NCBI RefSeq assembly: GCF_019931145.1
Contig: NZ_JAIOUV010000003.1
Coordinates: 1 to 64,000, forward strand
Length of the DNA: 64,000 nucleotides
Source: Marinicella meishanensis
GTDB lineage: Bacteria; Pseudomonadota; Gammaproteobacteria; Xanthomonadales; Marinicellaceae
Direction of reading: 5' to 3'
Shown: piece after piece, positions 41,399-42,314 of the stretch
Position numbering within the stretch: the first letter of the stretch is position 1
Layout: the number at the start of each line of letters is the position of its first letter
The notes under the pieces: generated by a model
Told to the model about the DNA's origin: nothing
What the model saw: only the letters and a program-made list of their open reading frames with translations
Databases searched by the model: none
Position numbers and translations under genes: made by a program

Positions 41399-41506
41399 AC
41401 CAGGCCCAAACCCCAAGCCCACAGCATGCGATACTGACCTCAGGCACATGATTGGTTGCTGCGGCTTTGCTATGATGGATGTTTCTACATTTTCAGGAGG
41501 AAAATC

Positions 41507-42314
41507 ATGCAATGTCCCAGCTGCCACTACTCCAGATTACAAGCCACCCGTTTGGACCAAGGCTTACCGGCTTTGGGTTGCGCCGATTGCGGCGGCGCCC
41601 TGTTGCCTTTGTTGTCCTATCGGGATTGGGTGGAACGATTGACCCCTGATGGCCACAGCGCTGAATCCAGTTCACTGACCTGCCAGGTCGAACACGACAG
41701 CCGCCGGGCATTGAGTTGCCCCAAGTGCAATGGCCTGATGACAAGGGCCTGTTAACACCCACTTAATGACCACTGTTCAGGTTACAAAGGTCACAATCAA
41801 GGCGCGAAAAGCGTGATTTGGTCATTCCAATCGAGCGATGAGCAACGCAGGGTGTGGCCTTTGTAGGCTGAACCCATGGGGCTGGGTCGTATTGATCACC
41901 CCTCTGCGTTATTCACTCGTTCATGTGGAATGACCACACATCACGACTGATGCCTTGATGGCTGATCAATACGATCCAGCAGTCGCCTTTCAGTGGGTGC
42001 TAACAGGTCCTAAATATCGCATCCAAAGTGACCAGGAAAACCGCTTGGACTTGTGTGACCATTGTGATGAGGCCTGGTTGGATGGGGGCGAATGGGCCTT
42101 GTTGCAAGCTTTGCAATTGACCGATCAGCTGCCACAAATCTTCACCGAAACCTGGCAACAACGGATCAGCCATGAACACAGCGAACAACGGCTGAAAGCC
42201 CGTTACCAACAACTGGTGGGCGCGGCCGACATCGAAAAAGCCGCGGCTTTCAGAGACTGGTTAAACCGACATGAAAAACGCGCTGAATTGTTGTTCTTCA
42301 TCAGTCAGAAATAA
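41507..42314 (+). pseudogene. TFIIB-type zinc-ribbon protein gene split by an insertion
   Basis: The 5' part (from ATG 41507, Shine-Dalgarno AGGAGG) encodes MQCPSCHYSRLQ with C3, C6, C25, C28, then C71PKC74NGLMT, and stops after 82 residues inside inserted DNA. The 3' part resumes in another frame after 42011 with KYRIQSDQENRLDLCDHCDEAWLDGGEW, the rest of the second zinc ribbon, and ends at 42314. Removing 41744-42011 joins ATG ACA to AAA TAT CGC and restores one frame of 179 codons plus stop. The result matches zf-TFIIB proteins that have two CxxC...CxxC ribbons. The intact gene was probably a small metal-binding protein of unknown role. The element supplies an in-frame ATG (41958), so a C-terminal fragment could still be made. 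Confidence 0.86.
41744..42011. mobile_element. MITE-like 268-bp element with terminal inverted repeats
   Basis: The left end AGGGCCTGTTAACACCCACT and the right end, read in reverse complement as AGGACCTGTTAGCACCCACT, match at 18 of 20 positions. There is no transposase gene. It inserted within the codons for MTK of the zinc-ribbon gene. No target duplication is visible; deletion restores the frame exactly. Internally there are strong inverted repeats: 41819-41851 with 41899-41936, 41882-41898 with 41963-41979 (16 of 17 pairs), and 41783-41790 with 41858-41865. The first two pairs cross each other. Confidence 0.85.

Follow-up and report, generated by a model that had tools for sequence, protein, structure and literature searches.

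The window, by which we mean the whole stretch of 64,000 nucleotides of Marinicella meishanensis that was analysed, contains a small double zinc-ribbon gene whose two halves lie on either side of a palindromic repeat (Table 1). Dropping positions 41744-42011 joins 41507-41743 (79 codons) to 42012-42311 (100 codons) in a single frame of 179 codons, just as the first-pass annotation of this DNA had proposed. The 5' half matches Zn_ribbon_TFIIB (PF13453; E 2.8e-6, 27.1 bits against a cut-off of 22), the 3' half has no Pfam family of its own at E 1, and each of them contains part of the second zinc ribbon. Relatives of the 3' half occur in 2 of the 17 other genomes of the genus (E <= 0.001; 32-33% identity), where the residues at the junction read MT-KYK and MT-KFK, the hyphen marking the position of the repeat; the G003 relative is identical in sequence to L129, from Marinicella marina X102. 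On a larger scale, 97 relatives were confirmed when GTDB contigs were scanned; 80 loci were kept and 79 examined, L126 (match beginning at residue 3) being excluded. In these 79, the residue two before the junction is M in 77 and L in 2, and the one after it is K in 78 and R in 1, so that all of them read M/L-x-K/R, with MTK in 24. The junction comparison that the first-pass annotation had offered as a possible refutation does not, then, count against the split. As a separate observation, relatives of the 3' half in Pseudomonadales reach 58% identity, compared with 32-33% for the copies from the same genus. The gene being rare in the genus (2/17) and nearer to Pseudomonadales, either horizontal gain or differential loss is possible.

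Table 1. Features of the interrupted gene and of the inserted repeat (positions in the window).
Feature	Positions	Strand	Remarks
5' half of split gene	41507-41743	+	79 codons; first zinc ribbon whole (CPSC...CADC) and CPKC of the second
MITE-like palindromic element (copy L001)	41744-42011	.	266-bp core 41745-42010 and one base on each side; from same-genome matches and alignment A2 (17 copies)
Terminal inverted repeat, left	41744-41763	+	AGGGCCTGTTAACACCCACT; family end GGNCCTGTTAACACC
TAA in frame, within left terminal repeat	41753-41755	+	terminates the 5' half; ORF 41456-41755
Hairpin A (internal), left arm	41778-41794	.	partner 41854-41870; helix 3; two-sided changes across families
Core, element positions 68-116	41811-41859	+	also in third-family elements with other ends
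Hairpin A (internal), right arm	41854-41870	.	helix 3; two-sided changes across families
Hairpin B, left arm	41882-41909	.	partner 41952-41979; helix 7; inverted repeat I1, arms 41881-41904 and 41957-41980
Hairpin B, right arm	41952-41979	.	inverted repeat I1; helix 7
Candidate restart: ATG within element, frame through right end into 3' half	41958-42314	+	118 aa; ORF 41955-42314
Terminal inverted repeat, right	41992-42011	-	pairs with left end at 18/20
3' half of split gene	42012-42314	+	100 codons and stop; CDHC, the second zinc-ribbon pair; WLDGGEW motif

Could the two halves be separate genes with a repeat that merely lies between them? Both are open, and an in-frame ATG for the 3' half is available inside the element, as one would expect under such a reading. 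However, the second zinc ribbon is split between the halves, and each of the 79 relatives examined carries one open frame across the junction, which rules out separate genes as the origin of this arrangement and makes the reading exceedingly improbable. Translation of the 5' half runs four codons into the element before it meets the stop. The 3' half, in turn, could at most restart from the ATG inside the element: in 14 of 17 copies, the mini-frame that begins there (41958 in L001) reaches the right end without a stop, and in L001 and in L008 it shares its frame with the gene half downstream. The loss of function claimed at first is likely, with the qualification that the first zinc ribbon is intact and that this ATG shares the frame of the 3' half.

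The repeat itself has the general traits of a MITE: it is short (266-268 bp) and non-coding, it is bounded by terminal inverted repeats, and it is dispersed in many copies with ends in common. The first 20 bases, AGGGCCTGTTAACACCCACT (41744-41763), and the reverse-complemented right end (41992-42011) agree at 18 of 20 positions, as had been stated, and the ORF listing holds no frame of transposase size within 41744-42011, again in agreement with the earlier description. Across the family, the ends read GGGCCTGTTAACACC, and the core measures 266 bp. A blastn search with the 268 bases against the same genome (15 contigs, 3.99 Mb) returned 50 pieces, some of them opposite arms of one and the same copy, and the search for further copies that the first-pass annotation had called for thus yields 21 near-full ones spanning at least 258 of the 268 bases, the window copy counted, with fragments besides. 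Identity is 81-100% in 20 of the 21 and 72% in L025, a similarity far beyond chance. Together with the inverted-repeat ends and the uninterrupted relatives, this multicopy family supports the original view of a MITE-like element inserted in a gene. No match to the window element was found in plasmids or phages at E 1e-5. Several copies lie directly behind genes.

In contrast, the description of the insertion as recent and datable finds no support in the copies. Namely, the window copy has 6 private differences over 266 sites (L008 has 0 and L019 has 18), its closest copy, L002, is 93.7% identical to it, and private changes may predate the insertion. Some copies are arranged as dimers, and one identical dimer-junction sequence is found at L014, L015 and L022; the outer flanks of the whole dimers (L002 and L006) differ, which is what one would expect if dimers moved as units, and the L022 dimer is incomplete (L049). 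Shortened forms exist as well: one of 59 bp (L038) in the same genome, and forms of 18 bp (L056, L058) and 42 bp (L059) in the genus relative G009. At L034:501-524 and L036:501-524 there are two identical 24-bp forms that consist of hardly more than the two ends. In L020 (1501-1768), the inner segment 32-130 is inverted between the arms of hairpin A, and the copy adjoins an 18-bp palindrome resembling both ends; this inversion rests on blast alignments, and in a re-measurement at fixed, unaligned offsets the inverted orientation fitted no better than the direct one.

The zinc-ribbon gene is not the only one to have been interrupted. At L003:1213-2102 (contig position C8:260507-260774 of the same genome, G000), a copy lies in a flavin-reductase-like gene, with a match to PF01613 on the 5' half and to PDB entry 3fge on both halves, and this gene is whole in all five other genus genomes that have it. 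At L008:1236-2598 (G000 C9:185854-186120), a frame of 365 amino acids reads across once 268 bp are omitted; judging by this frame, the copy probably interrupts a gene, which probably encodes a membrane protein, and for which neither a relative in the genus nor a Pfam match was found. 

Where exactly does the element begin and end? The core shared by the aligned copies, GGGCC...GGNCC, measures 266 bp (265-267), and the window copy carries 2 bp beyond it, which may be either a decayed TA duplication (AA/TA) or part of the element ends. In other words, the exact borders given at first are right as far as the net length of 268 is concerned, while the element proper is a 266-bp core with 2 bp of uncertain origin, and the two ways of assigning these lead to the same protein. 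The target itself can be read from 32 elements with both ends mapped, comprising 19 near-full copies from the same genome, among which L002 and L006 have one flank inside a dimer, and 13, picked by hand, that are shortened or come from relatives. On the left, a pyrimidine is found at -3 in 29 and at -2 in 29, and A at -1 in 23; on the right, T is found at +1 in 25, and a purine at +2 in 31 and at +3 in 31. The preferred target is, consequently, Y-T/C-A on the left and T-A/G-R on the right, a YTAR-like site. In this same set, the 2-bp flanks on the two sides are identical for 11 of the 32 elements, compared with 9.6 in shuffles (P 0.32), and since such identity is no commoner than that, a TA duplication cannot be claimed. 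The net lengths of individual insertions differ: L001 requires 268 bp, as judged by its frame and the 79 relatives, and L008 requires 268 by frame alone, whereas L003 fits 266 and zero duplication, all five of the other genus genomes with the gene having exactly one residue between the halves. Judging from these lengths, a TA duplication would be neither proven nor excluded, and the earlier statement that there was no target duplication is likewise not established. A minor point concerns stop codons: in a raw count, a TAG stop is rebuilt from the flanking TA and the first G of the element on 5 of 64 element sides, four of these five being at gene ends (L019, L020, L044, L054) and the fifth (L003, antisense) being dropped.

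Genome-wide searches for three transposase families (PF01609, PF13358 and PF01797) brought up no partner, and the full-length IS with the same ends that the first-pass annotation had suggested looking for is not present among the genes of these families in the same genome. In particular, DDE_Tnp_1 (PF01609) and DDE_3 (PF13358) are absent at E <= 0.001, the latter result removing an IS630 partner within the genome from the list of candidates. The Y1 transposase family (PF01797; Y1_Tnp, RAYT-like) is represented by three genes, L149, L150 and L151, each of which sits among inverted repeats of its own that differ in sequence from the element; no pair of element ends surrounds any of the three, and the similarity to the element at L150 is confined to 24 nt that correspond to element positions 25-48 (E 7e-4). 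A REPIN with its RAYT was rejected for this reason, the RAYT gene not being flanked by the same palindrome at L149-L151. A DDE_3 gene is present in 1 of 18 genus genomes (G012, L152), and its locus contains no pair of element ends, just six isolated sites, each with 3 mismatches. A search of 69 loci (206 kb) for ends paired at a distance of 600-3000 bp gave 8 pairs, each having one end with 2 mismatches, and the longest frames in the 7 loci that contain them belong to thioredoxin, LysR, metalloenzyme or aconitase families or to none, with no transposase. Finally, inspection by eye of the neighbourhoods of unexplained end sites (11 loci) brought up no autonomous partner among the loci listed.

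The element folds strongly, with an energy of -127.8 kcal/mol on one strand (z -9.7) and -121.2 kcal/mol on the other (z -8.4), and its arms have changed together. Among 17 copies from the same genome, two-sided changes are found in 10 of 92 pairs, compared with 2.7 in shuffled alignments and 2-3 in slid ones. The effect is more pronounced in an alignment of 12 hand-picked elements from seven genomes, covering families f1 and f8, in which both sides have changed in 50 of 82 pairs, as against 27.9 after shuffling and 12-17 after sliding; here, 93.5% of the cells pair, against 35.0-42.6% when slid, a figure that leans towards pairing because this alignment also supplied the structure. What is more, changes that are private to one copy at both partners and still pair number 5, where 1.08 would be expected (P 0.003), and one of them (152:224) sits in the window copy; over all paired columns, 31 private changes keep the pair and 31 break it.

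One may ask whether this pattern reflects a structured RNA, regulatory or small, that has spread as a mobile repeat and whose pairs are kept by selection on the transcript. The stability of the fold (z -9.7 and -8.4), the two-sided changes in 50 of 82 pairs and the position of several copies right behind genes are what such a history would leave. So is, to a degree, an excess of G-U over A-C cells in alignment A3 (36 v 21, P 0.06), which is smaller in alignment A2 (27 v 20, P 0.38). Counted by column among pairs with a Watson-Crick majority, however, G-U is not significantly commoner than A-C (24 v 20 in A3, 19 v 18 in A2). This comparison is a weak test; as A-C pairs are never selected by RNA folding, pairs that are mostly G-U (2 in A3, 8 in A2; A-C none) were left out of it, and its balance does not favour selection on the RNA strand. 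In addition, both strands fold about equally well, Rfam 15 gives zero matches at gathering score in the window, and a permissive search adds only a sub-threshold MIR393 (21.2 bits against a cut-off of 60). We therefore regard an RNA as the origin of the conserved pairs as improbable. Rather, the two-sided changes in combination with the lack of a clear G-U bias suggest that the fold is kept at the level of DNA, plausibly by template switching. Namely, PMC8604942 lists arm homogenisation and spacer inversion among the outcomes of template switching, and the private paired changes and the inversion in L020, being outcomes of the kind described there, were counted in its favour.

What, then, moved the element? 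In our reading, positions 41744-42011 are very probably a non-autonomous, MITE-like palindromic mobile element that entered a gene for a small double zinc-ribbon protein, between its codons 79 and 80; a DDE transposase acting in trans would have moved it, and the pairing of its arms would have been kept at the DNA level. The copies by themselves demonstrate a dispersed, multicopy family with common ends that has entered genes which are whole in relatives and that prefers a particular target. As for the mechanism, the transposase acting in trans would have a TA/YTAR preference, being IS630-like in its choice of target, and would since have been either lost from the genome or not recognised; insertion between codons 79 and 80 would cut off the 5' half of the gene at the stop inside the left repeat; and the pairing of the arms would be maintained at least partly by template switching between them during replication. 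We count against this explanation that no partner was found, that the target duplication is not significant, that L003 fits none at all, and that 31 private changes break their pairs.

These points weigh differently if the folded DNA was moved as a single-stranded hairpin by an HUH/Y1 enzyme or some other recombinase and not by a cut-and-paste DDE transposase, for then no fixed target duplication would be expected. The net 266 bp at L003, 2-bp flanks that are identical no more often than in shuffles, a fold that has persisted between families around a core conserved for the most part, and a genome that has three Y1_Tnp genes and no DDE_Tnp_1 or DDE_3 all agree with such a route. Yet the Y1 genes lie between different inverted repeats without a pair of element ends, just a 24-nt piece being present at L150, the symmetrical ends and the YTAR flanks fit a TA-targeting cut-and-paste reaction better, and L001 (as well as L008, by frame alone) needs a net 268 bp, or 266 + 2. 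On balance, we consider single-strand movement unlikely.

By analogy with described repeats, the best reading is that of an ERIC/Correia-style MITE-like element that prefers YTAR sites. PMC2229807 and PMC10969869 describe bacterial MITEs as elements with TA ends and stem-loops that are mainly intergenic, some lying in genes with fused frames; they describe ERIC (or RU-1) and Correia/NEMIS, in particular, as short palindromes, repeated tens to hundreds of times, with TA ends and long stem-loops, that are mostly intergenic and now and then lie within a gene. Compared with these by description, the window element is longer (266 bp), has other ends, belongs to another order, has no proven target duplication and contains an inner core that is common to elements with other ends. 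RUP of Streptococcus pneumoniae, as treated in PMC2229807, is likewise non-autonomous with TA-containing insertion sites, but it has a matching IS630 (IS630-Spn1), whereas the search of the genome studied here found no DDE_3 gene. The target choice recalls IS630/Tc1-mariner elements (ISY100, IS630), which, according to PMC2170065, insert at TA and sometimes at AA/TT; a preference of IS630 for TA in CTAG is named in the reference list of that paper. For ISY100, the same paper gives a TA duplication in 34 of 39 insertions, with 2 into AA/TT and 3 flanked by TA at one end and by just A at the opposite end, so that the duplication is regular there and not demonstrable here. REP/REPIN systems with RAYT share the palindromic repeats and the presence of Y1 genes in the same genome, but the Y1 genes here sit among inverted repeats of other sequence. 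Also by description, the Chunjie MITE of Geobacter uraniireducens is similar in that it measures 235 bp, disrupts an operon and has dozens of shorter or partial copies (PMC10969869). In the literature searched, whose coverage is thin for subscription journals, no description of the window repeat was found. The splitting of a gene by a MITE is a common kind of event; of wider interest is that some 20 near-full copies and relatives in other families show, as a natural archive, how long palindromes maintain the match between their arms, through private changes that pair and through a spacer that is inverted, and that the element raises the question of its moving enzyme, there being no partner among the transposase families searched.

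The repeat family goes beyond what the first-pass annotation suggested, both in its distribution and in its degree of structure. In a sample of 299 genomes of the order, 18 matched, G000 among them, and this is a lower bound given that the search scored two candidates per genome. For the ends, we examined 20 stretches from 14 of the 18 matched genomes (G009 was read separately, and G208 and G212 were excluded); both ends were found in 13 of the 20 and not in L167, L168, L172, L173, L174, L175 and L179. In a second family of the order, f8, the genomes G163, G203, G191 and G199 have elements with the same ends and a 266-bp core, G163 reaching 67-68% identity to the window element along the full length. 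In a third family, f9, the genomes G117, G121, G228, G168 and G172, on the other hand, have palindromes of 275-276 bp, or 340-345 bp in L164 and L178, with other ends: those of the two kinds of element read GGGCCTGTTAACA versus GGAGCCTCTGAATAAC, the latter and its like marking the f9 palindromes. It is only in the core that blastn matches the latter, at positions 68-116 or 68-107 (about 40-49 bp), a segment that is kept largely, not strictly (TTTGG-TCATT-CCAA in most). The f9 loci with this core are L164-L169, L171, L172, L178 and L179, and wherever both ends were found in them, the ends differ. No plasmid matched an f9 element.

That one inner core recurs in elements whose ends differ offers a testable route to a recognition site. 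One could go further and propose that these hairpin elements form an undescribed class in several families of one order, with a fold kept at the DNA level and ends that have been exchanged, that the shared apical core would be the recognition site of a recombinase acting on folded DNA, and that this enzyme would find its smallest substrates in the forms of 18-59 bp seen in two families; we hold this whole proposal to be unlikely. The 400 kb sampled from G121, an f9 genome, contain 2 copies of full length and, in addition, three short forms measuring 42-55 bp, and the sole pair of ends 600-3000 bases apart runs from a full copy to a short form.
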